DNA from: Streptomyces sp. R41
GTDB lineage: Bacteria; Actinomycetota; Actinomycetes; Streptomycetales; Streptomycetaceae
Reading direction: 5' to 3'
Assembly (NCBI RefSeq): GCF_041053055.1
Contig: NZ_CP163443.1
Span: forward strand, 8,105,001-8,169,000
DNA length: 64,000 nt
Part shown: in pieces, positions 33,576-55,591 of the stretch
Layout of the letters: every line of letters starts with the position of its first letter
Position numbering within the stretch: the stretch's first letter is position 1
Made by a program: the position numbers and the translations under genes
The notes under the pieces: generated by a model
Seen by the model: the letters and a program-made list of their open reading frames with translations, nothing else
The model's database searches: none
What the model was told of the DNA's origin: nothing

Positions 33576-34220
33576 ATGCCCCCGCGCCTGCTCGTCTACA
33601 CCCGCACCACGGGCTACCGGCACGACTCCATTCCGGACGCCATCGCCGCCGTACGCACTCTCGGAGGGTTCGAGGTCGACGCCACCGAGGACCCCGCGGC
33701 ATTCGAGGTGCCCTTGGACGCGTACGCCGCCGTCGTCTTCCTCTCCACGAGTGGGGAGGTACTGACGCCTCCGGGGCGGGACCGTCTCGCGGCGTACGTC
33801 GAGGGCGGTGGAGGGTTTGTCGGGGTGCACGCCGCCGCGTGCACCGAGTACGACTGGGCCTACTACGGTGAGCTGCTCGGCGCGCGCTTCGACCGGCACC
33901 CGGAGTATCAGCCGGGGAAGGCCGTCGTCGAGGACCGGGGGCATCCGGCTACCCAACACCTGCCGCCCGTCTGGGAGTTCACGGACGAGTGGTACGACTT
34001 CCGGGCCAGCCCCCGCGGTGCGGTGCGTGTGCTCGCCTCCGCGGACGAATCCTCGTACGAGGGCGGGGGGATGGGGGAGGACCATCCGCTGGTGTGGTGC
34101 CGCGAGCAGGGCGCGGGAAGGGTCTTCTACACCGCTCTCGGGCATGCCTCGGAGGCGTACGAGGAGCCGGACTTCCGCGCCCATCTGCTCGGCGCTCTTA
34201 CGTGGGTGACCAGGACGTAA
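33576..34220 (+). CDS. ThuA domain-containing protein
   Basis: 214-aa ThuA-like protein (glutamine-amidotransferase-like fold) with RLLVYTRTTGYRHDSIPDAI, YVEGGGGFVGVHAAACTEYD, EFTDEWYDFRASPRG and the C-terminal GRVFYTALGHASEAYEEPDF block, all diagnostic of the family. In rhizobia ThuA acts in trehalose/disaccharide catabolism; in Streptomyces it is often fused to or near sugar enzymes. TAGGCT 6 nt before ATG points to a leaderless transcript. It converges on the LacI regulator of the GH43 operon with a 23-nt overlap. Confidence 0.9.
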   Translation: MPPRLLVYTRTTGYRHDSIPDAIAAVRTLGGFEVDATEDPAAFEVPLDAYAAVVFLSTSGEVLTPPGRDRLAAYVEGGGGFVGVHAAACTEYDWAYYGELLGARFDRHPEYQPGKAVVEDRGHPATQHLPPVWEFTDEWYDFRASPRGAVRVLASADESSYEGGGMGEDHPLVWCREQGAGRVFYTALGHASEAYEEPDFRAHLLGALTWVTRT

Positions 34221-38853: not shown

Positions 38854-38864
38854 GCGGGGGTGCC

Positions 38865-40323: not shown

Positions 40324-40437
40324 GTAGTAAGCGGTTGCCGTGAAGGTAGGCCGACAGGTCTGGCCGTAGCAAGGGGTGTGCGGGAGTTTATTACGTCAGG
40401 CTGGCAAAGCTGCTGGTAGGTGCGAGTAACCGGTTAC
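40324..40437 (-). promoter_or_regulatory. operator region of the ABC/GH43 operon
   Basis: The 275-bp gap upstream of the binding-protein gene has two palindromic elements. GTAGTAAGCGGTTGCCGT (40324-40341) shares its first ten bases with the site upstream of the LacI gene at 34-35 kb. GTAACCGGTTAC (40426-40437) is a perfect 12-bp palindrome sharing the AACCGGTT core with sites at 42967, 43100 and 55578. The operon may thus answer to both LacI systems. Confidence 0.5.
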
Positions 40438-40474
40438 GAAACGATCGCTTCCCGCACGGCACACCGCGGCACAC

Positions 40475-41560
40475 TCAGCCCCTGGAAGGCGGCTGCACGG
40501 AGTTGCGTACGACGACATGGGTGCCCAGTACGAGGTGATCGCCGTCGGCGCCCTTACGACGGCCCGCGCCGCCCTCGCGCCGGTCGGCCACCGCGCGCAG
40601 CGCCACGCGGCCCATCTCCTCGTACGGCACGTGCACGGTGGTGAGTTGGGGCGTGAGCTGGGAGGCGAGCGGGATGTCGTCGTAGCCGACGATCGAGACG
40701 TCCTCCGGCACCCGCAGCCCGGCCGCGCGCAGGGCCTGCATGGCCCCCGCGGCGACCACGTCCGTGCCCGCGAGCACCGCGGTGAAGTCCGGCGTTTCGT
40801 GCAGGGCCGTCTCGACGGCGCTGTAGCCGTGCTCGTCGTCGTAGGGCCCGTGCCGCACCATGCCCGGGTCGAAGGGCACGCCGTACGCCTCGAAGGCCCG
40901 CTCAGAGCCCCTCAACCGGCCCTGGGCCGTGGTGAGTTCGGCGGGTCCCGGCAACACCAGGACCCTGCGGTGCCCGGCCGACAGCAGGTGGCTGGCCATC
41001 GCGTAGGCGCCGCCCTCGTTGTCGTAGTCGACCGTCGTGGCCGGGACGTCGCCCTCAAGAGGCGGCCTGCCCACCAGGACGAGATGGGAGCCGGCCGCGT
41101 CGAGGGAACGGGCGAAGCGGGCCATGCGCAGCTGGTACTCGTCGTAGTCGTAGGCGCCGCCGAGCAGGACCACCGCGGCCACGCCCTGCTGGCGCATGAG
41201 GTTGACCAGCGCGAGTTCCCGTTCGGGGTCGTCGCCTGTGGTGCCGACCAGGGAGAGCCAGCCGCGCAGGGTGGCGGCGCCCTCAACTCCCTTGGCCACG
41301 TGGGCGAACGCGGCGCCGGTGATGTTGTTGATGAGGATGGCGACCGTCGGCGTACCGCCGCCGGCGAGGGAGCGGGCGTGGGCGTTGGTGACGTAGTCCA
41401 GGTCCCGGACGACCTTCATCACCCGGCGGCGCAGGTCCTCCGACACCGGGTAGTTGCCGGACAGGACACGCGACACGCTCGCGACGGAGACACCCGCCCG
41501 CTCCGCCACGTCGCGGATGGTGGCCCGTCCGGCGTCACCGGACGCCTTGCGCTGACTCAC
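40475..41560 (-). CDS. LacI family regulator (left border of polysaccharide locus)
   Basis: 361 aa. HTH TIRDVAERAGVSVASVSRVL, hinge YVTNAHARSLAG, effector domain ending SIVGYDDIPLASQLTPQLTT and a conserved tail GTHVVVRNSV. It is clearly paralogous to the LacI protein at 54.4 kb, with the same tail and same VEYDNEGGAYA-type effector motif. The two flank the polysaccharide locus. GTG start with GGAG upstream. GAAAC and GTTTC half-sites at 41656-41660 and 41672-41676 lie about 100 bp upstream. Confidence 0.92.
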   Translation of the reverse strand: MSQRKASGDAGRATIRDVAERAGVSVASVSRVLSGNYPVSEDLRRRVMKVVRDLDYVTNAHARSLAGGGTPTVAILINNITGAAFAHVAKGVEGAATLRGWLSLVGTTGDDPERELALVNLMRQQGVAAVVLLGGAYDYDEYQLRMARFARSLDAAGSHLVLVGRPPLEGDVPATTVDYDNEGGAYAMASHLLSAGHRRVLVLPGPAELTTAQGRLRGSERAFEAYGVPFDPGMVRHGPYDDEHGYSAVETALHETPDFTAVLAGTDVVAAGAMQALRAAGLRVPEDVSIVGYDDIPLASQLTPQLTTVHVPYEEMGRVALRAVADRREGGAGRRKGADGDHLVLGTHVVVRNSVQPPSRG

Positions 41561-41731
41561 CGCTGCGGCTCCTTCACCCTCACGACTGCCCCGCCGGCCG
41601 AAGGGGGATGCGGCCCCTTGCCGGACGGCCGGAGACTCCGACCCTCGCCGGTGCGGAAACCGTATCCCATTGTTTCTCCGGGGTGACGGGTCGCTTCGGC
41701 GGGGGAGCGGCGGCGCTCGTCGACGGCGGGC

Positions 41732-42745
41732 TCACGCGACATGCGCCAGGTCCGAGTGGCGCACCTCGTGGGCCGGGGGCAGGCCTGCGACCAGGCGTTC
41801 CAGTTCTTCCACGACGATACGGCCGAGGCGTTCCAGCTCGTTGCCGAGCGAGCCCGCGATGTGCGGGGTGAGGAAGACGTTGGGCAGGCGGTACAGCGGC
41901 GATCCGGCGGGCAGCGGCTCGGGTTCGGTGACGTCGAGGATCGCGTGCAGTCGGCCGGAGACCAGCTCGTCCGTGAGGGCGTCGGGGTCGACCAGGGCGC
42001 CGCGCGAGGTGTTGATCAGGAAACCGCCGTCCCGGATGAGCGCGAGCCGGCCGGCGTCGAGCATGCGATAGGTCTCGGGGATGTCGGGGGCATGCAGCGA
42101 CACGATGTCGCTGTGCCGCAACAGGTCCTCCAGCGCCAGGAGTTCGGCACCGAGGGCGGCGGCCTCGGCGGGGCTGACGTAGGGGTCGTGGAGCAGGACC
42201 GTGAAGTCGAACGGCCGCAGCAGCTCGAGCAGTCGGCGGCCCACGCGCGAGGCGCCGATGACTCCGATCCGGCGGCCGACGTTGCCGGTGTGCGCGGTCT
42301 CGGTGTCGGTCGGGTAGGCGTGGGTGGCTCGGAAGCGCTCGCGGTGGGTGAAGGTGTCCTTTCCGGCGAGCAGGATCATCGCCAGCGTGTACTCCGCGAC
42401 CGGCAGGGCGTTGCCGGTCACCGCGCTGGAGACCGTGATCCCGCGTTCCCACACGGCCTCGCCGACCAGCGAACGGATCGAGCCCGCGGCGTGCAGGACG
42501 GTGCGCAGGCGGGGTGCGGCGGCCAGCGCGCCGACGTCGAGGCGGGGGCAGCCCCACCCGGTGATCAGCACCTCTGCCCGGGCGAGAGCCTCCGCGGCCG
42601 CCGGATCGGCGAAGTCCCGTACGACGAGTCCGGGATCGAGGTCGGACGCCTGCCTCAGCCGGGCCAGGAGCGGCGGAGGGAAGAGCAGGGGGAGGTGCAC
42701 CGGATCCATTGCGAACACGACCCTCGGCGGCTGGGGGTTGGGCAT
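41732..42745 (-). CDS. D-2-hydroxyacid dehydrogenase
   Basis: 337-aa NAD-dependent dehydrogenase of the formate/glycerate family. The nucleotide motif is RRIGVIGASRVGRRLLELL. The catalytic Arg is in LINTSRGALVD, the Glu in DVTEPEPLP and the His in TPHIAGSLGNE. It interconverts a 2-keto acid and a D-2-hydroxy acid in the cytoplasm. Next to a uronate-type polysaccharide locus it could act on hydroxypyruvate, tartronate or a keto-deoxy sugar acid; this is inference. It shares strand with the LacI gene 171 bp downstream and has its own upstream palindromes. Confidence 0.9.
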   Translation of the reverse strand: MPNPQPPRVVFAMDPVHLPLLFPPPLLARLRQASDLDPGLVVRDFADPAAAEALARAEVLITGWGCPRLDVGALAAAPRLRTVLHAAGSIRSLVGEAVWERGITVSSAVTGNALPVAEYTLAMILLAGKDTFTHRERFRATHAYPTDTETAHTGNVGRRIGVIGASRVGRRLLELLRPFDFTVLLHDPYVSPAEAAALGAELLALEDLLRHSDIVSLHAPDIPETYRMLDAGRLALIRDGGFLINTSRGALVDPDALTDELVSGRLHAILDVTEPEPLPAGSPLYRLPNVFLTPHIAGSLGNELERLGRIVVEELERLVAGLPPAHEVRHSDLAHVA

Positions 42746-42778
42746 GGCTCTCCTGACACGCTGGATGACACGTTGAAT

Positions 42779-42826
42779 GATCTGCGATATGGAAACAGTT
42801 TCAGAAAGCGCCTTCTATCGTAGATC
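42779..42826 (-). promoter_or_regulatory. nested palindromes upstream of the dehydrogenase
   Basis: GATCTGCGATA (42779-42789) and TATCGTAGATC (42816-42826) form an 11-bp inverted repeat with one mismatch. Between them lies the perfect palindrome GAAACAGTTTC (42792-42802). The block starts 34 bp upstream of the dehydrogenase ATG and probably holds promoter and repressor sites. Confidence 0.5.
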
Positions 42827-42966
42827 TGCCGGGAAGGGGCGGTCAATCGGTGGGACGAGAGGCGTGGAACGAGGTGCGCCCGACGGGGAGCGGTCCTTGA
42901 TCCCACTCTGGTGCGAAATCGTTTACTACGGTTTCCCGGGGAGGGTCGCGCCCGGCGCCTGGTGGG

Positions 42967-43111
42967 GCAACCGGTTGCCCTGCTGACCAGGAGCGTAGGC
43001 ACTGGAACCCCATGCGCCCAGCGGGCCCACAGTTTTCGAAAGTTCGTCATGCCTCTTGACGTGCCGTGTCCTCAGAAGGAAGCTCCCAGCACCGCCATAG
43101 CAACCGGTTCC
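42967..43111 (+). promoter_or_regulatory. paired LacI operators upstream of the importer operon
   Basis: GGCAACCGGTTGCC (42967-42980, perfect 14-bp palindrome) and GCAACCGGTTCC (43100-43111) share the AACCGGTT core and lie 133 bp apart centre to centre, upstream of the solute-binding-protein gene. CGAAAGTTCG (43038-43047) lies between them. A matching site, GGCAACCGGTTCCC, precedes the LacI gene at 55.5 kb. Confidence 0.6.
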
Positions 43112-43192
43112 CGAAACATCGCACGCGGCATCCCATCCCCCGGCGCGTGCTCGAGTCCCGTCATCCATCTCACCGAAGAGAGTGGGTAGTTC

Positions 43193-44542
43193 ATGCACAC
43201 CCAGGCCGGTGCTCCGTTGAGCCGCCGCCGCTTCCTCGCCCTGTCGGCGGGCGGTGCCGCGGGCGGCGCGGCGGCGTTGAGCGGCTGCGCCATGCAGGTG
43301 TCCACCGGGGTCAGCGGTTCGGGCGAGACCGTCACGGTGATGGTCAAGTCCGGTGAGATCACCACGGATGACGTCAAGCAGGCCTACAAGGACCTCGGCA
43401 TCAAGATCGTCCTCGTGAAGTACGACATCACCAAGCTGATCGCGATGATGACCACCGGGAGTCCACCCGATCTGGTGCGCGGCGTCGGCGCCATCGACAC
43501 ACCGTATTTCGCGGCGCGGCAGGTGATGGAGGACCTGGATCCCTACTTCGCCAGAAGCGGCGTCCTCAAGGAGGACGACCTGGACCCGGTCAACGATCTG
43601 TGGCGCTACGACGGCCGGACCCAGGGCAAGGGGCCGCGCTACGGCATGGCGAAGGACTTCTCCCAGGACTCCATGTACTGGTGCAACACCTCGCTCTTCG
43701 ACAGGGCGGACGTCGACCAGCCGCCGGAGACGGAGCCGGTCACGTTCGAGGAGTGGCTGGAGAGTGCGAAGCGCCTCACCCGGCGCAAGAACGGCCAGAC
43801 GACCGTCTACGGCGGCAGCTACAACGGCCTGATGAAGTCGAGCCTCCTCGCCTGTCTGACGGCGGCGGCCGGCGGCAACCTGTTCACCGACGACTTCTCC
43901 CGCGTCGACTTCACCACCCCCGAGGCCCGCAAAGCGCTGGGCTGGTACATCGACTACTGCAAGGCCAAGGTCGGACCGAGCCCCGTCCAGCCCGACCCCA
44001 ACGCCTGGGACGGACCCACCTACCAGGCCGACCGCATGGCCATGTCGAACTCGGGCTACTGGCTCGGCGGCATGATCAACACCGATCCGAAGCTGGCGGA
44101 GGTGTCACGTCTCGCCCCCGCCCCGGTCTTCGAAGGCGCTCCGCGGCTCAGTCCCTGCCAGGGCGGCACCGGCCTGTGGATGCCGAAGAAGGCACCCGAC
44201 AAGGACGCCGCATGGCGGGTCTTCGAGTGGTTCTTCGGCGAAGGTCCTGCCAAGGCCCGCGCGTCCGGCGGCTGGGGCATCCCGAGCCTGAAGTCGCTGC
44301 GCCCGCTGATGCCGGCCAAGGAGGAGTACCAGAAGCGGGCGCTGAAGGTGCAGGAGGCCGAGCTGTCCCACTTCTCCGTCATCTCCTTCACGCCGTACGC
44401 CACGGCGGACGCGCTCGACGCCCTGTTCAACCAGGCTGCCCCGGCGGCGATGACGGGCCAGATGTCCGTCGACACCCTCGCCCGGCGCCTCAACTCGGCC
44501 ATGAACGAGCAGCTCAAGCGCGGGAAGGAGCAGGTGGGATGA
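43193..44542 (+). CDS. ABC transporter solute-binding lipoprotein (Tat signal)
   Basis: 449 aa. The Tat motif SRRRFLALSAGG and lipobox LSGCA give a folded, lipid-anchored binding protein. The body follows the sugar-binding family (FDRADVDQPPETEPVTFEEW, GGSYNGLMKSSLLACLTAAA, NSGYWLGGMINTDPKL). It starts a unit with two permeases and three secreted polysaccharide-active proteins, so its ligand is probably the oligosaccharide they release. The stop overlaps the next ATG by 4 nt. It is sequence-divergent from the 38.9-kb binding protein. Confidence 0.92.
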   Translation: MHTQAGAPLSRRRFLALSAGGAAGGAAALSGCAMQVSTGVSGSGETVTVMVKSGEITTDDVKQAYKDLGIKIVLVKYDITKLIAMMTTGSPPDLVRGVGAIDTPYFAARQVMEDLDPYFARSGVLKEDDLDPVNDLWRYDGRTQGKGPRYGMAKDFSQDSMYWCNTSLFDRADVDQPPETEPVTFEEWLESAKRLTRRKNGQTTVYGGSYNGLMKSSLLACLTAAAGGNLFTDDFSRVDFTTPEARKALGWYIDYCKAKVGPSPVQPDPNAWDGPTYQADRMAMSNSGYWLGGMINTDPKLAEVSRLAPAPVFEGAPRLSPCQGGTGLWMPKKAPDKDAAWRVFEWFFGEGPAKARASGGWGIPSLKSLRPLMPAKEEYQKRALKVQEAELSHFSVISFTPYATADALDALFNQAAPAAMTGQMSVDTLARRLNSAMNEQLKRGKEQVG

Positions 44543-45540
44543 CGACCGACCAGATCGCCTCCGTGGCCGAACGGCCGGACCCGACCGCGGCCGGGGGGCG
44601 GGCGCGGGCGCCAGCGAACCGGCGCGGGACCTCCATGACCGCCCGCAGGCACCGGGCGTTCTACATGTTCACCTCGCCTTGGATCATCGGGTTCCTGTTG
44701 CTGACCATCGCCCCGATGGCGTACGCACTGTGGCTCAGCTTCACCACCTTCGACGGTCTCTCGCCCAACTGGCGCTTCGTCGGGCTCGACAACTACCGCG
44801 AGCTGCTGTCCGACTCGGTGACCTGGCAATCCCTGGGCCGCGCCGGCCTGTTCGCGGCGACCTCCGTGCCGCTGTCGATCGTCGCGGGGCTCGGCCTCGC
44901 CGTCCTGGTCAACCGGCCGCTCAAGGCCCGCGGACTGTTCCGCACCCTGCTCTACCTCCCGGCCGTGGTGCCGCCCGTGGGCGCGGGCCTGGCGTTCAAG
45001 CAACTCTTCGACCAGAACTCCGGTGCCGCGAACGGTGTGTTGAACCTCTTGGGCATCGACGCCCTCGGCTGGCTGGCCGACCCCTACGCCCGCTACGTGC
45101 TGCTGATGACGGTGCTGTGGACCGCCGGAAACATCATGATCATCTCGCTGGCCGGACTCCAGGACGTGCCCCGCGAACTCCACGAGGCGGCCCGCGTCGA
45201 CGGCGCGAGCGCCTGGCGGACCTTCCGCAGCATCACCGTGCCCCTGCTCTCACCCGTGCTGCTCTTCCAGACGGTGACCGGGGTGATCGCCTCGGTGCAG
45301 ACCATCATGCCGCTGCTGCTGGCCCCCGACGGCACCACGGCCGGCGTCACCCTGGTTCCGCAGTCCAACTACCTCTACATGATGCATGTGTTCGCGCAGT
45401 ACTTCGCGATCGGCCGTTACGGCTACGCCTCCGCGCTGCTGTGGGTGCTCTTCGTCCTGATCCTCGTCGCGACCGGCCTCATCTTCCGGTTCACGTCCGG
45501 CGTGGTGTTCTACAACGTCGATCCGGAGGCGAAGCAGTGA
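44539..45540 (+). CDS. sugar ABC transporter permease (MalF type)
   Basis: 333-aa permease with a long, Pro/Arg-rich N-terminal tail before the first span (FTSPWIIGFLLLTIAPMAYA). EAA loop ELHEAARVDGASAWRTFRSI. Together with the next gene it forms the channel for the adjacent binding protein. No ATPase is encoded in the locus, so the shared MsiK-type ATPase is presumed. Confidence 0.93.
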   Translation: MTTDQIASVAERPDPTAAGGRARAPANRRGTSMTARRHRAFYMFTSPWIIGFLLLTIAPMAYALWLSFTTFDGLSPNWRFVGLDNYRELLSDSVTWQSLGRAGLFAATSVPLSIVAGLGLAVLVNRPLKARGLFRTLLYLPAVVPPVGAGLAFKQLFDQNSGAANGVLNLLGIDALGWLADPYARYVLLMTVLWTAGNIMIISLAGLQDVPRELHEAARVDGASAWRTFRSITVPLLSPVLLFQTVTGVIASVQTIMPLLLAPDGTTAGVTLVPQSNYLYMMHVFAQYFAIGRYGYASALLWVLFVLILVATGLIFRFTSGVVFYNVDPEAKQ

Positions 45541-46418
45541 CCGCCACCAGCCTGTCCGCGAAGTCCGCAACATCCCCGGAGCCCGCGCCCCGGATACGGA
45601 TCCGCGTCAACCGCCTCGTCCTCTACACGGTCCTCGTCGTGATCACGGGGCTGTTCCTCGGCCCCTTCGGCTGGCTGGTCGTCTCCGGCCTCAAGACCCA
45701 GGGCGAACTGGCCTCCTCTCCGGTTCGCTGGCTGCCCGGGCACGTTCAGTGGCACAACTTCGCCGACGCCTTCCATCAGATCGACTTCCTCGGCTACGCC
45801 CGCAACTCCCTCGTCATCGCGCTCATCTACGCCACCCTCGTCACCCTCAGCTCGGCCTGGGTCGGCTTCGGCTTCGCCCGTTTGAAAGCGCCCGGCAAGA
45901 AGACGCTGTTCGGCATCCTGCTCGGCTCGATGATGCTGCCTCAGCTCATCACCCTCCTGCCGACCTACCTGATCTTCGCCAAGCTCGGCCTGGTGGACAC
46001 GTACTGGCCGTGGGTGCTGTGGGGTCTCGCCTCGGCCCCGTATCTGGTCTTCCTCTTCCGGCAGTTCTTCGCCGGACTGCCGCGCGAGCTGGAGGAGGCC
46101 GCGATCGTCGACGGCTGCGGCTACGGCCGGATGTTCTGGCGGATCTTCCTGCCCCAGTCCTGGCCGGTCGTCTCCGCGAGCTTCGTGATCGCCTTCACCT
46201 GGACCTGGGGGGACTACATCGCCCCGCAGTTGCTGCTGTCCAGCGACCGCTCCACGCTGGCCGTCGCCGTCATGTCCGCGTACGTCACCCCGGCCGGGCA
46301 GCCCGTCCCCGAACTGCAGGCCGCCGCCTCCGTGATGTACGTCGTCCCGATCCTGCTGATCTTCCTCGTCGCCCAGCGCGGCTTCGTCGCCGGGATGTCC
46401 ACCACCGGCCTCAAGTGA
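45537..46418 (+). CDS. sugar ABC transporter permease (MalG type)
   Basis: 293-aa permease; GTG start overlaps the previous stop by 4 nt. First span LVLYTVLVVITGLFLGPFGW, EAA loop ELEEAAIVDGCGYGRMFWRI, last span VMYVVPILLIFLVAQRGFVA. It completes the importer. The next gene follows after 40 nt with an AAGGAG ribosome site, so cotranscription is likely. Confidence 0.93.
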   Translation: MTATSLSAKSATSPEPAPRIRIRVNRLVLYTVLVVITGLFLGPFGWLVVSGLKTQGELASSPVRWLPGHVQWHNFADAFHQIDFLGYARNSLVIALIYATLVTLSSAWVGFGFARLKAPGKKTLFGILLGSMMLPQLITLLPTYLIFAKLGLVDTYWPWVLWGLASAPYLVFLFRQFFAGLPRELEEAAIVDGCGYGRMFWRIFLPQSWPVVSASFVIAFTWTWGDYIAPQLLLSSDRSTLAVAVMSAYVTPAGQPVPELQAAASVMYVVPILLIFLVAQRGFVAGMSTTGLK

Positions 46419-46458
46419 CCTTCTGGATCTCCCCTTTTCGCCTCGCAAGGAGTCACGC

Positions 46459-47982
46459 ATGAACACGCCCCTGTCCCGCCGTACCGCCCTCCAAGCGGCG
46501 GGAGCCACCGTGCTTGCCGCCGGCCTGTCCGGCCTGACGGCCACGGCGGCCCGCGCGGACGACGACAACTCCGCACCGAAGCTGGTGACGTACCCCCGCC
46601 CGTCCACCATGGCGACCAACACCAGCTTCAAGGTGCGGGTCCGCACCGCCCCCGACGGCGAATGGCAGACCCTCGACCTCTACCGGCCCCAGCTGGAGGA
46701 GATCAACGCCACCACCGGGTCGGGCAAGGTCTACAACACGTCGATGGCGTACTTCGACTTCCAGGGCTCCGTCGAGATCGAGGTCACCTACCTCAAGGGC
46801 GGCACCACCAAGGCTCGGGTGAGACCGGACGCGCTGGGCATCAAGCCCGAACTGCTCGGCGACACCCTGCGCTTCACGCTCGACGAGCCGCGGGATGTCG
46901 TCGTCCAGATCAACGACGAGATATTCGACGCCCTCCACATCATCACCAACCACATCGACCCCAATCCGCCCGCCGCCGACGACCCGGACGTCATCTACTT
47001 CGGCCCCGGCGTGCACACCATCACGGGCAACGTGCTCACCGTCCCCAGCGGCAAGACCGTGTACCTGGCGGGGGGCGCCGTTCTGATGGCGCAGGTCTTC
47101 TTCAAGGACGTGGAGAAGGCCGCCCTCAGGGGCCACGGCATGCTCTACGCGGGCCCCGGCGGTGTCCTCTGCGAGGGCAGCAAGAACATCCGCGTCGAGG
47201 ACGTCATCATCATGAACCCGAACGGCTACGCCGGCACCTTTGGCATGAGTGAGAACGTCCACGTCAAGAAGGCGCGCTCGTTCAGTTCGAAGGGCAACGG
47301 CGACGGCTTCGACGTCTTCTCCTCCACCGGCGTCGTCTTCGACGGCTGCTTCATGCGCAACTCCGACGACTGCTTCGCCATCTACGCCCACCGCTGGAAC
47401 TACTACGGCGACACCCGCGACATCACCATCCAGAACTGCACCCTGTGGGCCGACGTCGCCCACCCGATCAACGTCGGCACGCACGGCAACACGGACGCCC
47501 CCGAGGTCATCGAGAACCTGGTCATCAAGAACCTCGACATCCTCGATCACCGCGAGCCCCAGATGGGCTACCAGGGCTGTATCGCCCTCAACCCCGGCGA
47601 CGACAACCTCATCAAGAACGTGCACATCGAGGACGTCCGCATCGAGGACTTCCGCTGGGGCCAGGTGATCCACATGCGGATCATGTACAACACGAAGTAC
47701 AACACCTCGGTCGGCCGGGGCATCGAGGACGTCTACGTCAAGAACCTCAGCTACACGGGCACCCACGCCAACCCGTCGCTGTTCCTCGGCTACGACGCCG
47801 ATCACGCCATCAAGAACGTCACCTTCGAGAACCTGGTGATCAACGGCACCGTCGTCGCCGACTCGATGAAGAAGCCCAAGTGGTACATGACCACCGACAG
47901 TGTGCAGTGGTTCGCCAACGAGCACGTCCTGAACCTGACGTTCCTCACCACCGCCGAGGCCGAGGCGGCCGCCGCGTCATGA
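46459..47982 (+). CDS. secreted GH28/GH49-like beta-helix glycoside hydrolase
   Basis: 507 aa with Tat signal SRRTALQAAGATVLAAGL. Residues about 40-160 form a beta-sandwich, then a parallel beta-helix starts at DVIYFGPGVHTITGN. Clan GH-N acidic residues appear as NGDGFD (280-285) and NSDDC (301-305), followed by GTHGN (340-344). This pattern of paired Asp is shared by GH28 polygalacturonases and GH49 dextranases; the N-terminal sandwich favours a GH49-like architecture, while the context of uronate-active enzymes favours GH28-like specificity. Its stop overlaps the next start by 4 nt. Confidence 0.82.
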   Translation: MNTPLSRRTALQAAGATVLAAGLSGLTATAARADDDNSAPKLVTYPRPSTMATNTSFKVRVRTAPDGEWQTLDLYRPQLEEINATTGSGKVYNTSMAYFDFQGSVEIEVTYLKGGTTKARVRPDALGIKPELLGDTLRFTLDEPRDVVVQINDEIFDALHIITNHIDPNPPAADDPDVIYFGPGVHTITGNVLTVPSGKTVYLAGGAVLMAQVFFKDVEKAALRGHGMLYAGPGGVLCEGSKNIRVEDVIIMNPNGYAGTFGMSENVHVKKARSFSSKGNGDGFDVFSSTGVVFDGCFMRNSDDCFAIYAHRWNYYGDTRDITIQNCTLWADVAHPINVGTHGNTDAPEVIENLVIKNLDILDHREPQMGYQGCIALNPGDDNLIKNVHIEDVRIEDFRWGQVIHMRIMYNTKYNTSVGRGIEDVYVKNLSYTGTHANPSLFLGYDADHAIKNVTFENLVINGTVVADSMKKPKWYMTTDSVQWFANEHVLNLTFLTTAEAEAAAAS

Positions 47983-50900
47983 CGATCCCCGCGACGAGCC
48001 GCCGGGGCTTCCTCGGCAACGCCGCGGCCCTGCTGCTGGTGTCGGGCGCGAGCGGACTGCTCGTGCCCGGCACGGCACGGGCCGCCCAGGACGAGAACGA
48101 GGACGAGACCGGCCGCGGAGCCTTCACCCACCCCGGACTGCTGCACACCGCCGACGACCTCGCCCGTATGAAGGCAGCGGTCGCCGCGAAGGAATCACCC
48201 GTCTACGACGGCTACTTGGCGCTCGCGGCCCATGCCCGATCCTCGTCGTCGTACACCGTGCAGAACACCGGTCAGATCACCTCGTGGGGCCGCGGACCCA
48301 GCAACTTCCAGAACCAGGCCGTGGCCGACTCGGCCGCCGCCTACCAGAACGCCCTCATCTGGTCCGTCACCGGCGATCGCGCGCACGCCGACAAGGCCCG
48401 CGACATCCTCAACGCCTGGTCGGCGTCACTGACCGCGATCACGGGCGCCGACGGCCCACTCGGCGCCGGGCTCCAGGCCTTCAAGTTCGTCAACGCGGCG
48501 GAGCTGCTGCGCCACGGCGACTACGACGGCTGGACGAACGCGGACATCGCGCGCTGCGAGGAGTCCTTCCTGCGCGTCTGGTATCCGGCCGTGTCCTCTT
48601 ACATGCTCTACGCCAACGGCAACTGGGATCTGACGTCTCTTCAGTCCCTGCTGGCCATCGGCGTGTTCTGCGAGGAGCCCACGCTCTTCGACGACGCGCT
48701 GCGCTTCGCCGCCGCGGGCGCGGGCAACGGCAGCGTGCCGCACCGCGTCGTCACCGACGCGGGCCAGGGCCAGGAGAGCGGCCGCGACCAGGGCCACGAA
48801 CAGCTCGCGGTCGGCCTGCTCGCGGACGCCGCCCAGGTCGCCTGGAACCAGGGCGTCGACCTGTGGGGCTTCGACGACCACCGCATCCTCGCCAACGTCG
48901 AGTACGCCGCCCGCTACAACCTGGGCAACGACGTTCCCTTCACTCCCGACCTCGACCGCACCGGCAAGTACATCAAGAAGACCGTCTCGGCCACCGGGCG
49001 CGGCACCATGCCGCCGATCTACGAGATGGCATACGCGCACTACGCGGGCGTACGCGGCCTTGATGCCCCGTACACGAAGAACGCCGTCTTCCGGGGCACC
49101 GGCGGCGCCCGTGTCGTCGAGGGCAGCAACGACGACCTGCCCAGCTGGGGCACCTTCGCCTACGCCGGTGCGACAGCCTCCTCGCCGAGCGTGCCCACGG
49201 CTCCGGCGGGTGTCACGGCGGTGGGCGACGACAGGGCCGTCACCGTGAGCTGGCTGCCGTCCGTGTGGGCGAGCGGGTACACCGTCCGGCGGGCCAACCG
49301 CCCCGAGGGCCCGTACGAGGAGATCGCCTCCGGGGTCGACCATCCGTCGTACACCGACAGCGACGTGCGCCCGGGCCGGACGTACCACTACACGGTCATC
49401 GCCTCCAACCCCCAAGGAAACAGCGGTAATTCAGGCCCTGTCTCGGCTGTCGCCGGTCTCCCCGAGCTCTGGTCCACCCAGGACATCGGGGACGTGAAAA
49501 TCGCCGGTTCGGCCGCCTTCGACGGCGAGCGGTTCGTGCTGGAGGCGAGCGGCACCGCCGACAGCTACCGCCTGGCGTACCTCCCGCTGCCCGGCGACGG
49601 CACGGTCGGCGCGCGGATCGTATGGCCGCTCAGCTCGCAGTACTCCAAGATCGGCGTCACCCTTCGGGACTCCCTCGACGCGGATGCGGCGCATGCCTCC
49701 ATGCTGATCCAGGGGCTGCCGCTGCACACCTGGAGCGGCGTGTGGACCGTACGGCCCTCGGCCGGCTCCGATATCTCCGCCACCGGCAGCACCCCCGTGC
49801 CGCCCTCCCAGCAGCAGGCCATCACCACCTCCGCGGCCTTCCCGATCTCCAGCCTCGGCACCCTGCCGGAGTCGGCGACCCCGCTGGAGGCCCCGTACGT
49901 CGAGGGCGCGGGCGACGGCTACCGGCTGCGGACGCCGTACTGGGTGCGCGTGACCCGCAGGGGCCGCCGCTGCACCGGCGCGATCTCCCCGGACGGCATC
50001 CGCTGGACCGAAGTCGGCTCCACCGAGGTCGAGCTGGGGCACACCGCGTACGCGGGCCTTGTCCTCACCTCCTGCCTGGGCGTCGACGAGGACTACGCCG
50101 AGACCGGCGCCGGTGCTTTCGACAACGTCAGCGTGACCTCCTCCTCGTCCGGTGAGGTCTGGTCCGTGCCGCGCCCCGCCCGCACCGCCACCGGCCTGCG
50201 GGCGACCAGCGGTGCCGACGCCGTCGAACTCGCCTGGACCGATCCCGACCCCTCCGCCCGGTACAAGGTGCTGCGCGCCAACGACGCCGACGGCCCGTAT
50301 CAGACGATCGCGACCGGCGTCGGCCCGGTCGGGTTCGGCACCCGTGTCCGGTTCGCGGACGCGACGGGCACGCCCGGTGCGACATACCACTACGTCGTCG
50401 CGAAGATGAACTGCGGCGGGCGCGGTCCGCTGTCGGAGTCTGCCGCCGCGCCGATGCCGTCACCCTCCGTGCCCCAACTCACGTCTGCGGACACCGCGTT
50501 CGCGAACCAGGGCGTCGCGTTCCGGCATGTGCTGCGGGCCTCGCACGAGCCCGTACGGTTCACCGCCGACGGGCTGCCCGACGGCCTCCGGGTCGACAAG
50601 CGCACCGGCCTGATCTCCGGAAGCCCCACCCGGACGGGCGAGTTCACGGTCACGACCACCGCGGGCAACGCGGCCGGCGACGGGACCGGCACCCTCACCG
50701 TCACGGTCGGCACACCCCCGCCCGCTCCCTGGACGTACGGCGACGTCGGTGACGTGGTTCTCGACGACCGCGACTTCGGGACGCTGGGCGTGGTGGCGAT
50801 CCGTACGCCCGGCAGCACGTCGTACGACGGCGGGACCTTCACCGTTCGGGGCGCCGGAACCGATCTCACCGTCAACAACCAGGGAATGACCGGCCAGTTC

Positions 50901-51326
50901 GTACGACAGCCCGTCACCGGCGACTGCGAGGTCACCGCCCGGCTGGTCTCCCGTACCGGCGCCACCGCCGACCGGGTGGGCCTGCTGATGGCCAAGTCGC
51001 TGTCGCCGTTCGACCAGGCCGCCGGGGCGATCGTCACCGGCGGGACCGCCGCGCAGCTGATGCTGCGCAAGACCGTGGCGGGCGCCTCCACCTTCACCGG
51101 CACCGTGACCGTCCAACTGCCTCTGTTGCTGCGGATGAAGCGCACCGGGACCGCCTTCGCCGCGGCCGTCTCCACCGATGACGGCGCCACCTGGACCCCC
51201 CTCGCCGACGGAGAGATTCCCGGCTTCGGTGACGCCCCCTACTACGTGGGCCTCGTGGTCTGCTCCCGCAGCCCCCTGGTCCGCAGCACCACCGAGTTCG
51301 AAGAGGTGAGCATCACCCCCACCTAG
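47979..51326 (+). CDS. large secreted multidomain alginate-lyase-family protein
   Basis: 1115 aa. Tat signal SRRGFLGNAAALLLVSGASG. Residues about 45-385 form an alginate_lyase (alpha/alpha toroid) domain with HPGLLHTADDLARMKAAV, NGNWDLTSLQSLLAIG and ESGRDQGHEQLAVG, the last probably catalytic or substrate-binding. Then come an FN3 domain (about 400-490), a jelly-roll region, a second FN3 (about 735-830), a putative-Ig domain (about 830-910, ISGSPTRTGEFTVTTTAGNA) and a second jelly-roll domain. The C-terminal modules probably bind substrate. Paralogous in its catalytic part to the next gene. Confidence 0.85.
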   Translation: MTIPATSRRGFLGNAAALLLVSGASGLLVPGTARAAQDENEDETGRGAFTHPGLLHTADDLARMKAAVAAKESPVYDGYLALAAHARSSSSYTVQNTGQITSWGRGPSNFQNQAVADSAAAYQNALIWSVTGDRAHADKARDILNAWSASLTAITGADGPLGAGLQAFKFVNAAELLRHGDYDGWTNADIARCEESFLRVWYPAVSSYMLYANGNWDLTSLQSLLAIGVFCEEPTLFDDALRFAAAGAGNGSVPHRVVTDAGQGQESGRDQGHEQLAVGLLADAAQVAWNQGVDLWGFDDHRILANVEYAARYNLGNDVPFTPDLDRTGKYIKKTVSATGRGTMPPIYEMAYAHYAGVRGLDAPYTKNAVFRGTGGARVVEGSNDDLPSWGTFAYAGATASSPSVPTAPAGVTAVGDDRAVTVSWLPSVWASGYTVRRANRPEGPYEEIASGVDHPSYTDSDVRPGRTYHYTVIASNPQGNSGNSGPVSAVAGLPELWSTQDIGDVKIAGSAAFDGERFVLEASGTADSYRLAYLPLPGDGTVGARIVWPLSSQYSKIGVTLRDSLDADAAHASMLIQGLPLHTWSGVWTVRPSAGSDISATGSTPVPPSQQQAITTSAAFPISSLGTLPESATPLEAPYVEGAGDGYRLRTPYWVRVTRRGRRCTGAISPDGIRWTEVGSTEVELGHTAYAGLVLTSCLGVDEDYAETGAGAFDNVSVTSSSSGEVWSVPRPARTATGLRATSGADAVELAWTDPDPSARYKVLRANDADGPYQTIATGVGPVGFGTRVRFADATGTPGATYHYVVAKMNCGGRGPLSESAAAPMPSPSVPQLTSADTAFANQGVAFRHVLRASHEPVRFTADGLPDGLRVDKRTGLISGSPTRTGEFTVTTTAGNAAGDGTGTLTVTVGTPPPAPWTYGDVGDVVLDDRDFGTLGVVAIRTPGSTSYDGGTFTVRGAGTDLTVNNQGMTGQFVRQPVTGDCEVTARLVSRTGATADRVGLLMAKSLSPFDQAAGAIVTGGTAAQLMLRKTVAGASTFTGTVTVQLPLLLRMKRTGTAFAAAVSTDDGATWTPLADGEIPGFGDAPYYVGLVVCSRSPLVRSTTEFEEVSITPT

Positions 51327-51373
51327 CGGCCTCGGGGAAGCTCGGGCACGCACCCGCCCTTCCCCGAGGCCGC
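51326..51373 (+). terminator. terminator after the large lyase gene
   Basis: A perfect 15-bp GC stem, GCGGCCTCGGGGAAG (51326-51340) with its complement at 51359-51373, immediately follows the stop codon. It lacks a U-run but is very stable, so the next gene may be expressed at a different level or from its own promoter. Confidence 0.7.
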
Positions 51374-51404
51374 TAATCCTCCACGGGATTGGAGATGCAC
51401 CAGA

Positions 51405-52655
51405 ATGAGCCGCACCAAGAACCCCCACACGCAAGGGAAGCCGGCACAGGTGAGCCGCCGCGGTCTGCTCAGGACCGCGGGCGGGCTTACCGCCGCCCTC
51501 GCCGTCGGCGCGTCCACGGCGGCCGCCACCGGCGGCACCGCGGACGCCGCACCCGCGACCTTCACCCATCCCGGAATGCTGCACGCCTACGGAGAGCTCA
51601 ACCGCGCCAAGGTGCGGGTCGCCGCGGGCGACGACCCGTGGCTCTCCGGCTGGAAGCGCCTCACCGCCAACAGCCACTCGGCCGGCACCTGGACCCCCAA
51701 CCCGCAGGCCACGATCATCCGCGGCGGCACCGGCGAGAACTACGGCATCCTCTACAACGACATCCACGCGGCCTACCAGAACGCCCTGCGCTGGAAGATC
51801 GCGGGGACGACCGCGAACGGCGACACGGCCGTCAAGATCCTCAACGCCTGGTCCGCCAAGCTCACCACGGTCATCGGCAACGCCGACCGCTTCCTGGCCG
51901 CCGGGATCTACGGCTACCAGTTCGCGAACGCAGCCGAACTCATGCGTGGCTACAGCGGGTTCGACCTCGCGCGGTTCAAGACGATGATGCTCGACGTCTT
52001 CTACCCGCTCAACAACCAGTTCCTGACCGGACACAACGACGCCTGCATCACCAACTACTGGGCCAACTGGGACCTGTGCAACATGAACTCGATCCTGGCC
52101 ATCGGCATCCTCTGCGACGACGCGGCCAAGTACGACCAGGCGGTGAACTACTTCAAGAACGGCGCGGGCAACGGCTCCATCAAGCACGCCATCCCGTTCG
52201 TGTACGACAGCGAGGGGCTCGCCCAGTACCAGGAGAGCGGCCGCGACCAGGGCCACACCGTGATGGGCATGGGCCAGCTCGGTGCCTTCTGCGAGATGGC
52301 CTGGTCCCAGGGCGACGACCTCTACGGCTACGACAGCAACCGGTTCATGAAGGCCGCCCAGTATGTCGCCAAGTACAACCTCGGCCAGGACGTGCCCTTC
52401 ACGACGTACACCTGGGGCACGGGCCAGAGCTGCGCCCAGCAGTCGCAGACCGTGATCTCGTCCGCGAGCCGCGGTCAGGTCCGGCCGGTGTGGGACATCC
52501 TGTACTACCACTACGCCCGCCGGCGCGGGCTCTCCGTCCCGTACATCCAGGCCATGGCCGAGAGCGTCCGCCCCGAGGGCGGAGGCGGTGACTACGGCTC
52601 TACCAGCGGAGGCTTCGACCAGCTCGGCTTCGGCACATTGATGTACGCCAAATAG
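51405..52655 (+). CDS. secreted alginate-lyase-family protein
   Basis: 416 aa, a single-domain version of the preceding catalytic module. Tat signal SRRGLLRTAGGLTAALAVGA; HPGMLHAYGELNRAKVRV, NYWANWDLCNMNSILAIGIL, ESGRDQGHTVMGMGQLG and KYNLGQDVPF align with the neighbour. Alginate-lyase-type toroid enzymes cleave uronic-acid-containing chains by beta-elimination; the real substrate of this Streptomyces subgroup is not known to me. The ATG is preceded by a GGAG-containing stretch. It probably arose by tandem duplication, but the identity is only moderate. Confidence 0.88.
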   Translation: MSRTKNPHTQGKPAQVSRRGLLRTAGGLTAALAVGASTAAATGGTADAAPATFTHPGMLHAYGELNRAKVRVAAGDDPWLSGWKRLTANSHSAGTWTPNPQATIIRGGTGENYGILYNDIHAAYQNALRWKIAGTTANGDTAVKILNAWSAKLTTVIGNADRFLAAGIYGYQFANAAELMRGYSGFDLARFKTMMLDVFYPLNNQFLTGHNDACITNYWANWDLCNMNSILAIGILCDDAAKYDQAVNYFKNGAGNGSIKHAIPFVYDSEGLAQYQESGRDQGHTVMGMGQLGAFCEMAWSQGDDLYGYDSNRFMKAAQYVAKYNLGQDVPFTTYTWGTGQSCAQQSQTVISSASRGQVRPVWDILYYHYARRRGLSVPYIQAMAESVRPEGGGGDYGSTSGGFDQLGFGTLMYAK

Positions 52656-52771
52656 GGCCGTTCACGGTCACAGAAACGACGTCCACAGGAATGACGTCCG
52701 AAGGAATACCCGGAAGTGATGTGATGCTCTGATGTGAACGGTTCGCGAGTCGGCGAGGAGCTGGTGGTCGG

Positions 52772-54400
52772 ATGGCGGTGCACGCGGCGGACTCGGTTTC
52801 GCAGACGAAGGACCCGGTGGTCAGCACCCCCTACGGAGCGGTGCGCGGCCGGTACGAGAACGGGATCGCCGTCTTCCGCGGCATCCCCTACGCGGCACCG
52901 CCGTTCGGCCCCCGCCGCTTCCGTCCCCCGGCGCCGCCCGAGCCCTGGGACGGGGTGCGCGACGCCGGCGCCTTCGGACCGACGCCGCCCAAACCGCCGT
53001 ACTCCGAGGCGTTCGCGCGGCTCCTCGCCGACCCCGTCGTACCCGGCGACGACTGCCTCAACCTCAATGTGTGGACTCCGGAGCCGGGACCGGGCGCCCG
53101 GCTCCCCGTCATGGTGTGGATCCACGGCGGGGCCCTGACCCGCGGTTCCTCGGCCGTGCCCGTCTACAACGGGCGCTCCTTCGCCCGCGACGGCGTCGTG
53201 CTCGTCTCCCTCAACTACCGCCTCGGCGTGGAGGGTTACGGCCTCTTCCCCGACGCTCCCGCCAATCCCGGGCTGCGCGACCAGCTCGCCGCGCTGGAGT
53301 GGGTGCGTGAGTCGATCACGCAGTTCGGCGGCGACCCCGACCGGGTCACCGTCTTCGGCGAGTCGGCCGGAGCCATCAGCATCGGCGCCCTGCTGGCCAG
53401 CCCGCGCACCGCGGGCCTCTTCCGTCGCGCCGTCCTGCAGAGCGGACCGCCTGAGGTGAGCGACCGCGACAAGGTGCGCCGGATGGTGCGCAGGATGGCC
53501 ACCCGGCTGAAGATCCCGGCGACGGCCGAGGCGTTCGCCGCCGTGGACCGCGATCTGCTCCTGCGCACCCAGGCCGACGTGGGGAAACTCAGCAGCCCTG
53601 TGGTCGGCGGACCCGCCTTCGGCATCGTCGTCGACGGCGACCTCGTCCCGCGCGACCCACTGGAGGCCCTCGTCGAGGGCGCCGCGCCGGACGTCGATCT
53701 CCTCCTGGGCTGGACCAGCGAGGAGTACCGGCTGTGGCTGGTGCCCGGCGGCCTCCTGGAGCGCGTCGACCGCCTCGGCCCCGTCGCCCTGGCCGGCGCG
53801 ATGGCCCGCTGCCGCTGTGGCCACGAAGTGCCCCGCGGCTACCGCGCCATCCACCCGGACGCGGGCACCGCCGACCTCGTCGGCCAGATGGTCACCGACC
53901 ACCTCCTCCGAGTGCCCCTGCATCGCCTCGCGGACGCCCCGGCCCGCCCATCGCCCTCGTACGTCTACGAGTTCGCCTGGCCCTCGAACGTGCCCGACCT
54001 CGGCTCCTGCCACGCCCTGGAGCTGGGCTTCGTCTTCGACACCGCCGGCGTACCGGAGTCGGCGAAGCTCGCGGGCGCGGGTGCCCCGCAGGAGCTCGCC
54101 GACGCGATGCACACGGCGTGGGTACGGTTCGCGGTCGAGGGCGATCCCGGGTGGCAGGCCTGGGACGCCTCGCACCCGGTCCGCGTCTTCGGCGTCGGCG
54201 CACCGCACACCGTCCACGGGCCGCGGGATCGCGAACTCGACCTGTGGGAAGCGGAGTTGGGCAAAGCGGCGGGCGAGACCGTCGGCCTTCCGCAAACCAC
54301 CACCGCGGCGCACGGGCCCGCCGGTTCGTCCCCACGCGCGGCGGCGCCGCTGTCAGCCGTACGCCGCTTCCGTCGCTCCGGCGGCGACCGGCGGTCGTGA
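52772..54400 (+). CDS. type-B carboxylesterase
   Basis: 542-aa alpha/beta-hydrolase of the carboxylesterase/lipase family. Oxyanion-hole HGGA (118-121), nucleophile Ser198 in GESAG (196-200), and DDCLNLNVWTP before the oxyanion motif. The His of the triad is probably in GSCHALELGFVF. No signal peptide is clear, so it may act inside the cell. In this locus it could remove acetyl or methyl esters from uronate-containing oligosaccharides; this is inference. It ends 25 nt from the convergent LacI gene. Confidence 0.9.
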   Translation: MAVHAADSVSQTKDPVVSTPYGAVRGRYENGIAVFRGIPYAAPPFGPRRFRPPAPPEPWDGVRDAGAFGPTPPKPPYSEAFARLLADPVVPGDDCLNLNVWTPEPGPGARLPVMVWIHGGALTRGSSAVPVYNGRSFARDGVVLVSLNYRLGVEGYGLFPDAPANPGLRDQLAALEWVRESITQFGGDPDRVTVFGESAGAISIGALLASPRTAGLFRRAVLQSGPPEVSDRDKVRRMVRRMATRLKIPATAEAFAAVDRDLLLRTQADVGKLSSPVVGGPAFGIVVDGDLVPRDPLEALVEGAAPDVDLLLGWTSEEYRLWLVPGGLLERVDRLGPVALAGAMARCRCGHEVPRGYRAIHPDAGTADLVGQMVTDHLLRVPLHRLADAPARPSPSYVYEFAWPSNVPDLGSCHALELGFVFDTAGVPESAKLAGAGAPQELADAMHTAWVRFAVEGDPGWQAWDASHPVRVFGVGAPHTVHGPRDRELDLWEAELGKAAGETVGLPQTTTAAHGPAGSSPRAAAPLSAVRRFRRSGGDRRS

Positions 54401-54425
54401 CGACGGGACACCGCCGAGCTCGCCG

Positions 54426-55499
54426 TCACGCACCGTCCCCACGCTTCACCCCGCCCACCGAATCGCGGATCACGACGTGCGTCCCCAGGAGAAGGTGTTC
54501 GTTCGGGGCGTCCGGGGTTCGGCCCAGGGCGGTGCGGACGGCCAGGCGGCCGAGTTCCTCGTAGGGGACGTGGACGGTGGTGAGCGGGGGGAACAGGTCA
54601 CGGGCGAAGGGGATGTCGTCGTAGCCGGCGAGGGAGACGTCGGCCGGGACGCGCAGGCCCGCTTCGTGCAGGGCGGTCAGCGCGCCGGCGGCGACCATGT
54701 CGGTGGAGGCGATCACGGCCGTGAACTCCAGCCCCTGTGCGAGGGCTTGGCGCATCAGACGGTGTCCGGAGTCGCGGGTGAAGTCGCCGTACAGCCGCAG
54801 TGTCGGGTCCGGGTCGAGGCCGCGTGCCCGATGGGCGGCGAGATAGCCGCGTTCGCGGCCCTGTGCCGTGGTGTTGTCCGCCTTGCCGCCGAGGAACAGG
54901 ACGCGCCGGTGGCCCTGGGCGAGGACATGCGCGGACAGGGCGTAGGCGCCGCCCTCGTTGTCGTACTCGATGACCGTGACCGGCGTTCCGGGCGCGAGCG
55001 GCGGGCGTCCGCACAGGACGAGTCGCGATCCCGCCGACGCCAGCGAGTCGGCGATGCGGGCCATCCGCTCGCGGTACTCGGCGGTGTCGGTGGCGCCGCC
55101 GACCAGGATCACCGCGGCGGCGCGCTGGGCACGCATCATCTCGATGAACTCCAGCTGGTGTTCGGCGTCGCCGTCGGTGCTGCACACCAGGCACAGGTGC
55201 CCCAGCCGGGTCGCCTCGCGCTCCACGCCGTGCGCCATGTGCGCGAACGACGGACCGGTGATGTCGTCGAGGACGAACGCGAGCGTCGGCGTGCCGGCCC
55301 CCGCGATCGCCTTGGCGCGGGCGTCGGCCACATAGTCCAGCTCACGGACCGCCCGCATCACCCGCGTACGCGTCGTCGTGCTCACCGGGTACTCGCCGCC
55401 GAGCACCCGCGACACCGTCGACGCCGACACTCCCGCGCGCGCCGCCACGTCCCGGATCGTGTGCCGGCTCCCGGTGTCCGTGGTGCTCTTCCTCGTCAT
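54426..55499 (-). CDS. LacI family regulator (right border of polysaccharide locus)
   Basis: 357 aa. HTH TIRDVAARAGVSASTVSRVL, hinge YVADARAKAIAGAG, effector domain ending SLAGYDDIPFARDLFPPLTT, tail GTHVVIRDSVGG. It is a close paralogue of the 40.5-kb LacI protein. The AACCGGTT-type operator 80 bp upstream matches those of the importer operon, so autoregulation and control of the locus are likely. Ligand presumably a breakdown product of the polysaccharide. Confidence 0.93.
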   Translation of the reverse strand: MTRKSTTDTGSRHTIRDVAARAGVSASTVSRVLGGEYPVSTTTRTRVMRAVRELDYVADARAKAIAGAGTPTLAFVLDDITGPSFAHMAHGVEREATRLGHLCLVCSTDGDAEHQLEFIEMMRAQRAAAVILVGGATDTAEYRERMARIADSLASAGSRLVLCGRPPLAPGTPVTVIEYDNEGGAYALSAHVLAQGHRRVLFLGGKADNTTAQGRERGYLAAHRARGLDPDPTLRLYGDFTRDSGHRLMRQALAQGLEFTAVIASTDMVAAGALTALHEAGLRVPADVSLAGYDDIPFARDLFPPLTTVHVPYEELGRLAVRTALGRTPDAPNEHLLLGTHVVIRDSVGGVKRGDGA

Positions 55500-55577
55500 C
55501 CCCTGGCCCCTTTCCTCCGCCCCGGGCGACGGCGTATTCCGGCGCCGGGGCCCCTCGGGAAGTGCGGCAACACGTAC

Positions 55578-55591
55578 GGCAACCGGTTCCC
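55578..55591 (-). promoter_or_regulatory. AACCGGTT operator upstream of lacI
   Basis: GGCAACCGGTTCCC, about 80 bp upstream of the LacI start, shares 11 contiguous bases with the perfect palindrome at 42967-42980. The rest of the 226-bp gap (55500-55725) has GGGGCGCGGGGAACTGCGCG, a phrase often repeated in Streptomyces intergenic DNA. Confidence 0.6.

Follow-up and report, generated by a model that had tools for sequence, protein, structure and literature searches.

The locus described here lies within a 64,000-nucleotide stretch of the Streptomyces sp. R41 genome (positions 8105001-8169000 of a 10.46-Mb single contig, NZ_CP163443.1), hereafter the window, and is a probable actinobacterial LacI-controlled polysaccharide-utilization regulon whose most interesting features are a pair of paralogous LacI-family regulators, LacI1 and LacI2, and a set of helically phased operators with the core AACCGGTT. 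On the minus strand, the run of genes from 40199 to 35451 encodes a sugar-binding protein (SBP_a), two permeases and a glycoside hydrolase of family 43 (GH43), and is followed by the gene for a third LacI-family protein, LacI3. To the right of this SBP_a operon, lacI1 and a D-2-hydroxyacid dehydrogenase gene occupy the same strand. Beyond the dehydrogenase gene the plus strand encodes a second sugar-binding protein (SBP_b), two permeases, a GH28-like protein, two PF05426-like proteins (ALy1 and ALy2) and a carboxylesterase, after which lacI2 lies on the minus strand. The coordinates are given in Table 1.

Pfam searches recovered the gene set reported in the first-pass annotation of this DNA, namely the sugar-binding protein of an importer, a GH28-type beta-helix protein, two PF05426 proteins, a carboxylesterase, a D-2-hydroxyacid dehydrogenase and two LacI proteins. 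The span drawn there holds as part of the system and is incomplete; it begins in mid-system, because the GH43 operon outside it (35451-40199) shares the operators and accompanies lacI1, and the system has two importers, not one. The account of two LacI genes bracketing the locus was corrected on both points, as the LacI3 gene follows GH43 and lacI1 is central, sitting between two operator-bearing operons. A LacI3 copy (83-84 % identical) adjoins GH43 in three of the four upstream flanks fetched, and in the fourth flank genome (L151) a 79 % identical copy adjoins lacI1, without the GH43 operon. No SusC/SusD pair was found in the 15 Pfam-scanned window proteins (33453-55499, one permease unscanned), the importers being of the ATP-binding cassette (ABC) type instead.

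The operator sequence noted in the first-pass annotation, GCAACCGGTT, is present exactly at 42967, 43100 and 55579 (the last one base from the 55578 given there), with the variant GTAACCGGTTAC at 40426 as reported; a further conserved site at 40329, AAGCGGTT, had been missed. There are five copies of the 8-bp core AACCGGTT in the window, where shuffles predict 0.37, and 55 in the whole 10.46-Mb genome. Four of the five window copies are intergenic, at promoters. The fifth, at 52338, was discounted as an operator: it reads in frame as AAC CGG TTC (Asn-Arg-Phe) of ALy2 and is conserved with the protein, the copy at this position recurring in the ALy2 of many loci that lack this operon.

Table 1 Features of the probably LacI-controlled locus and its putative operators (window coordinates; strand as + or -)
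Feature	Position	Strand	Basis
LacI3, third LacI-family gene, downstream of GH43	34198..35259	-	Pfam LacI + Peripla_BP_3
GH43 + GH43_C2, beta-xylosidase-like, predicted cytoplasmic	35451..37058	-	Pfam; no signal by inspection
Two ABC permeases, importer a	37055..38853	-	PF00528 for the upstream one (37969-38853); the other by conserved order only
SBP_a, predicted Tat-type lipoprotein sugar-binding protein	38865..40199	-	PF01547; twin-arginine and lipobox by inspection
Operator AAGCGGTT (within TGTAGTAAGCGGTTGC), SBP_a promoter region	40329..40336	+	Conserved place
Operator AACCGGTT (within GTAACCGGTTAC), SBP_a promoter region	40428..40435	+	AANCGNTTACG is the conserved form
LacI1	40475..41560	-	PF00356 and PF13377 above cut-off
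D-2-hydroxyacid dehydrogenase, first gene before lacI1	41732..42745	-	PF02826
Promoter-like TTGACC-18-TACGAT, dehydrogenase	42817..42846	-	Consensus match only
Degenerate operator AATCGGTG, overlapping the dehydrogenase promoter-like element	42845-42852		GATTGACC in 13/14 regions
Operator 1, AACCGGTT (within GCAACCGGTTGC)	42969..42976	.	Sequence and conservation
Operator 2, AACCGGTT, 133 bp from operator 1	43102..43109	.	Sequence and conservation
SBP_b, predicted Tat-type lipoprotein sugar-binding protein	43193..44542	+	PF01547
Two ABC permeases, importer b	44539..46418	+	PF00528 in both
GH28-like (remotely GH49-like) beta-helix hydrolase, predicted exported	46459..47982	+	PF00295, 9.5e-13
ALy1: PF05426-like domain, fn3, Ig, DUF1349-like (last below cut-off), predicted exported	47979..51326	+	Pfam
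ALy2, PF05426-like, predicted exported	51405..52655	+	Pfam
Type-B carboxylesterase, no signal peptide by inspection	52772..54400	+	PF00135, 4e-94
LacI2	54426..55499	-	PF00356 and PF13377 above cut-off
Operator AACCGGTT upstream of lacI2	55581..55588	.	Conserved in orthologs

Conservation was followed in loci mapped from the best 80 of 185 named ALy2 relatives and from 20 of 35 other congeneric lacI1 regions. The nearest named relatives of ALy2 among those 80 are from Streptomyces, at 90 % identity at best. The dehydrogenase gene is present in all 20 lacI1 regions, the SBP_a operon in 18 and SBP_b in 14 (once at 53 % identity). Own genome included, a LacI1 ortholog at 82 % identity or more is found in 36 of 246 congeneric genomes and SBP_b in 47 of 392. 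The core AACCGGTT lies within 300 nt upstream of lacI2 in all 24 usable orthologs (two further ones were dropped because the upstream sequence was too short); it occurs at least once in 31 and at least twice in 29 of 32 divergent dehydrogenase/SBP_b regions, and at least once in 62 and at least twice in 58 of the 68 non-redundant SBP_b upstream regions (from 90). When 14 divergent regions with a median pairwise identity of 0.60 were compared, five 8-mers were common to all, including AACCGGTT; two of these 8-mers overlap and belong to a single site. At the SBP_a promoter, the place of the 40329 site holds AAGCGGTT or AACCGGTT, after TAGT or TAGA, in 17 of the 18 orthologous regions compared, the window being one of them, and the 40428 place yields 17 instances of AANCGNTTACG across the 18; since exact AACCGGTT is present in only nine of the 18, the core of the SBP_a sites is taken as AANCGNTT.

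The proposal of a LacI-controlled polysaccharide-utilization locus with two paralogous regulators and a shared operator is thus borne out by conservation of the operator with the genes in many species. That the repeated palindrome is a product of chance or composition is extremely improbable: one of the five window copies is merely codons, but the genome rate predicts 0.08 copies per 15,166 bp (Poisson P for five or more 2.5e-8, the region having been picked post hoc), and the position-specific conservation in 24 of 24 lacI2 and 31 of 32 divergent loci contradicts it. Another conserved element, TTTCGAAA, lies at 43034-43041, upstream of operator 2, and in 13 of the 14 divergent regions, and is possibly the site of another regulator. 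Outside Streptomyces, six Kribbella loci (L064, L065, L067, L068, L075 and L092) have ALy2, GH28-like and ALy1-like genes, four of them with a LacI2-like gene beside ALy1. The stretches fetched for these loci contain no AACCGGTT except one copy (L092:387), and the operator there is therefore either altered or the control different.

LacI1 and LacI2 are 55 % identical over 359 columns, in agreement with the paralogy first proposed. Both (PF00356, PF13377), and LacI3, have a LacI-type helix-turn-helix and a periplasmic-binding-like effector domain by Pfam, and CG-centred palindromic operators lie at the promoters of LacI1 and LacI2 themselves and of their presumed targets, which by sequence and conservation is the arrangement of the LacI/GalR family. 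The recognition helix reads VAS in 20 of 21 LacI1 proteins (one was unread by the motif search) and AST in 24 of 26 LacI2 proteins, the other two having AAT. The flanks also vary by operator class, the lacI2 site being GGGAACCGGTTGCC (lacI2 sense), operator 1 GGCAACCGGTTnCC and the SBP_a sites GAAANCGNTTACGNAA and TGTAGTAAGCGGTTGC. Recognition residues that are nearly fixed yet different, together with these class-specific flanks, could point to two separate modules, LacI1 controlling GH43 and importer a via the relaxed AANCGNTT and LacI2 controlling itself and importer b via GG(G/C)AACCGGTT, an arrangement we regard as somewhat improbable because the 8-bp core is common to all sites and operator 1 has flanks like those of the lacI2 site, though the adjacent gene starts the lacI1 operon. 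For the same two reasons some cross-binding of the paralogues is likely, and joint control of the locus by both is the arrangement followed below.

Operators 1 and 2 are separated in the window by 133 bp, or 11.98 turns of 11.1 bp, and so lie on the same helix face. The corresponding spacing is 89-325 bp in 57 of 58 regions, the exception being a pair 12 bp apart. The best period of the 58 spacings is 11.10 bp, with R 0.70 (0.15 at 10.5 bp), a value reached in 0 of 4000 randomisations, and after collapsing to 15 distinct values R was 0.70 at 11.15 bp (18 of 4000). Forty-eight of the 58 spacings are no more than 2.5 bp from a multiple of 11.1, where 26 would be expected, and the mean phase is 0.08 turn. 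Nulls in which related regions were shifted together reached the observed R in 0-1 of 2000 cases at each of five relatedness thresholds, the grouping covering the 48 of 58 regions that include the dehydrogenase part. No phase is seen in the distances between operator and start codon of these regions (1629 and 1604 of 2000 in the nulls), and the distance from the dehydrogenase -35 element to operator 1 gives R 0.19 at 11.1 bp and at best 0.41 at 11.4 bp (31 distinct values, no null run). The phasing was first noticed after three periods had been tried on 23 distinct spacings, and in the 28 regions outside that first look R was 0.56 at 11.0 bp (0 of 20000). This phasing across species is a new observation of the present analysis. 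Operators placed whole turns apart would allow two dimers on one face to meet, and the phasing of the paired operators, together with the unphased start distances, suggests GalR-like looping.

Several results weigh against such a loop or against its generality. Part of the phasing signal comes from spacings that different lineages have in common. When one spacing was kept per group, the nulls gave 0, 0, 9, 63 and 6 of 2000 across the five thresholds. The 13 hold-out spacings that were new to the set had R 0.42, which is not significant (2058 of 20000), the six hold-out values that differ by over 3 bp from every earlier spacing gave 13011 of 20000, and nearest-neighbour spacing changes are weakly phased (R 0.30). 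The SBP_a operator pair (91-99 or 213-218 bp apart) is unphased at 11.0-11.1 bp, with R 0.21-0.22 (0.57 at 10.5 bp, no null run). Six of the 68 SBP_b upstream regions lack AACCGGTT within 900 nt. Escherichia coli LacI tetramerises via a C-terminal extension; LacI1 and LacI2 end in ...GTHVVVRNSV and a few residues, and inspection of these ends showed no leucine-rich tetramerisation tail. Looping would need dimer-dimer contact, and the lack of a long C-terminal tail favours a contact of the GalR kind over a LacI-like tetramer. The claim of phasing is strong for the whole set and, because the new hold-out spacings, the neighbour changes and the SBP_a pair are weak, moderate for independent events.

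The same regulon could also work with independent operators, one blocking the dehydrogenase promoter and the other that of SBP_b, and the phasing would then be a by-product of the shared ancestry of a few spacings. Recurring values of 133, 190, 211/212 and 321/322 bp, each common to several regions, agree with this, as do the missing tetramerisation tail, the unphased SBP_a pair and the failure of new hold-out spacings to reach significance when taken alone; we nevertheless find it doubtful, as the nulls that preserve relatedness so rarely match the observed R and the control distances from the same regions carry no phase. In its most far-reaching form, the looping reading would hold that two autoregulated dimeric LacI paralogues jointly loop the divergent promoters, that selection has shifted their spacing almost only by whole turns (~11.1 bp) across dozens of Streptomyces species, and that the PF05426-related degradative enzymes, for which no solved relative was found, may form a new polysaccharide-lyase family; this combination is put forward tentatively and is itself rather improbable. 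If it were true, the natural series of spacings advancing in ~11-bp steps would make the in vivo helical repeat and selection on loop geometry readable from sequence in a high-GC soil genus. Most of what is known about looping by LacI/GalR repressors comes from a handful of laboratory operons. A literature search, in which subscription journals were mostly outside coverage, so that its silence is weak evidence, returned no description of this locus and no described activity for the PF05426-like family of ALy1 and ALy2.

The best-identified enzyme of the locus is GH43, whose best PDB relatives are the xylan beta-1,4-xylosidases 1yrz (1.3e-125) and 2exh, and from this relationship the substrate likely contains xylose. 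The carboxylesterase has a carboxylesterase relative in the PDB (7w1j); inspection showed no signal peptide, and a role as a secreted de-esterifying enzyme is therefore improbable. The esterified uronic-acid polysaccharide first suggested as the likely substrate is one possibility only. The dehydrogenase is of the general D-2-hydroxyacid type, with phosphoglycerate dehydrogenase as its best solved relative. Starts of the twin-arginine translocation (Tat) type were recognised by inspection in SBP_a, SBP_b, the GH28-like protein, ALy1 and ALy2, and none was seen by the same means in GH43, the esterase or the dehydrogenase.

ALy1 and ALy2, which are 40 % identical over 339 columns, were called alginate-lyase-type proteins in the first-pass annotation, a label weakly backed by their PF05426 scores, which are 47.9 and 40.4 bits (curated cut-off 22.2) against 323.7 for a canonical protein of the same genome. 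Sequence and profile searches of the PDB brought up no relative of ALy2 with an E value of 1 or below. The domain was found in 38 of 38 members of the ALy2 alignment. Asn-Asn-His is the active-site motif of PL5-type alginate lyases; NNH was not seen in the alignment of ALy2 relatives, and a profile comparison with the canonical PF05426 protein aligned only 31 columns. By sequence the two proteins are remote relatives of alginate lyases. The canonical protein, of alginate-lyase type and encoded at 1996875-1997729 of the genome, has the motif KNNHG.

The GH28-like protein has three aspartates (D282, D303 and D304) that are invariant in 22 of 22 members and align with the DGID and DD stretches of 3jur, and which we take to be the GH28 catalytic aspartates. 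The galacturonate-binding site of GH28 enzymes consists of His and Arg-x-Lys, and the main aligned stretch with 3jur stops before these positions. Sequence and profile searches of the PDB gave only weak GH28-type matches (best 5.2e-6 in the profile search), with the xylogalacturonan hydrolase 4c2l at E 0.055; the GH49 model matches two of the 22 members, weakly (best E 0.0025), and the match of the profile to the other GH28 protein of the genome is also weak (probability 7.4). A pectic substrate such as xylogalacturonan, cut by a GH28 galacturonan hydrolase and relieved of its side chains by the beta-xylosidase, would agree with the GH28 Pfam match, with the polygalacturonases among the best solved relatives, with the weak 4c2l match and with the relationship of GH43. 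We consider it unlikely, given how weak the GH28 similarity is, the likewise weak matches of two members to GH49, and the scan of the locus genes, in which no pectate-catabolic gene was recognised. Clustering of the neighbourhoods of the 80 named loci returned no gene that fixes the substrate; extra GH43 genes lie near ALy2, and a GH127 beta-L-arabinofuranosidase cluster is present in five loci (one member, beside ALy2, was Pfam-checked).

Taken together, these observations are read, with moderate confidence, as a LacI-repressed Streptomyces regulon for a xylose-containing, probably acidic, heteropolysaccharide of plant or microbial origin, with a probable repressor loop. Outside the cell, the Tat-exported GH28-like and PF05426-like enzymes would cut the polymer, and the oligosaccharides would enter via the two importers, which appear to be of the CUT1 type. 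No ATPase gene was seen beside either importer, and the ATPase is presumably the shared MsiK. In the cytoplasm the GH43 beta-xylosidase, the carboxylesterase and the 2-hydroxyacid dehydrogenase would process the oligosaccharides. Without inducer, LacI1 and LacI2 would occupy the AACCGGTT/AANCGNTT operators at the SBP_a operon, the dehydrogenase-lacI1 operon, the SBP_b operon and lacI2, and at the divergent dehydrogenase/SBP_b promoters the dimers bound to operators 1 and 2, which share a helix face, would probably close a GalR-like loop, until an oligosaccharide derived from the substrate released the repressors. With its defined regulon and a region ready for use in reporters, the locus offers a way to find the substrate of the widespread PF05426-like family.

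The Streptomyces regulons of CebR and BxlR are similar in layout, with a LacI gene beside an operon for a sugar-binding protein, two permeases and a glycosidase, and a shared ATPase; to our knowledge they differ in operators and substrates and have neither a second paralogous LacI nor PF05426-like enzymes. PtxS of Pseudomonas, a LacI-family repressor of the 2-ketogluconate regulon, binds a CG-centred palindrome with the same core, TGAAACCGGTTTCA (PMC11678583), but as the one regulator of a sugar-acid operon with other genes in another phylum, and with flanks TGA/TCA where the present sites have GG/CC or GTA/TAC. In the gal operon of E. coli, GalR dimers on two operators 113 bp (~11 turns) apart meet and shut both promoters (PMC4693257); the likeness lies in a dimeric repressor with two operators across two promoters, whereas gal has one regulator plus HU and an experimentally shown loop, and the present locus has two paralogues, divergent operons and a loop suggested by its sequence. 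In vivo, loops in lac constructs of E. coli repress most strongly near 133 and 144 bp, with 11 bp to the turn (PMC8501960); the former optimum is also the operator spacing in the window. AcrC of Actinoplanes (MalR type) is likewise an actinobacterial LacI repressor; its two operators lie in a divergent region at a spacing of 182 bp, and a loop was suggested (PMC5526262). It is the one regulator of acarbose genes, and the passages available hold no cross-species spacing evidence.

Elsewhere in the genome, the pattern RNAACCGGTTNY is found at 17 places, four of them in the locus, and four of the other 13 were read. The paired sites at 6508342 and 6508372 fall in or between genes that do not have the look of a sugar locus, and the 9174459-9174728 cluster and the 8198096 site have CGAACCGGTTCG flanks, which are of a different class; on the basis of these sites extra regulon members are neither claimed nor excluded. 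The cluster holds four copies of AACCGGTT in 270 bp, all with CGAACCGGTTCG flanks, beside a minus-strand gene for a secreted protein and an operon for a sugar-binding protein and permeases (by inspection), and is apparently the operator cluster of another regulator with the same core. A homocysteine methyltransferase-like gene (by inspection; 55726-56652), with no evident functional link to the locus, often stands to the right of lacI2, and its cluster is present in 14 of the 80 named loci.

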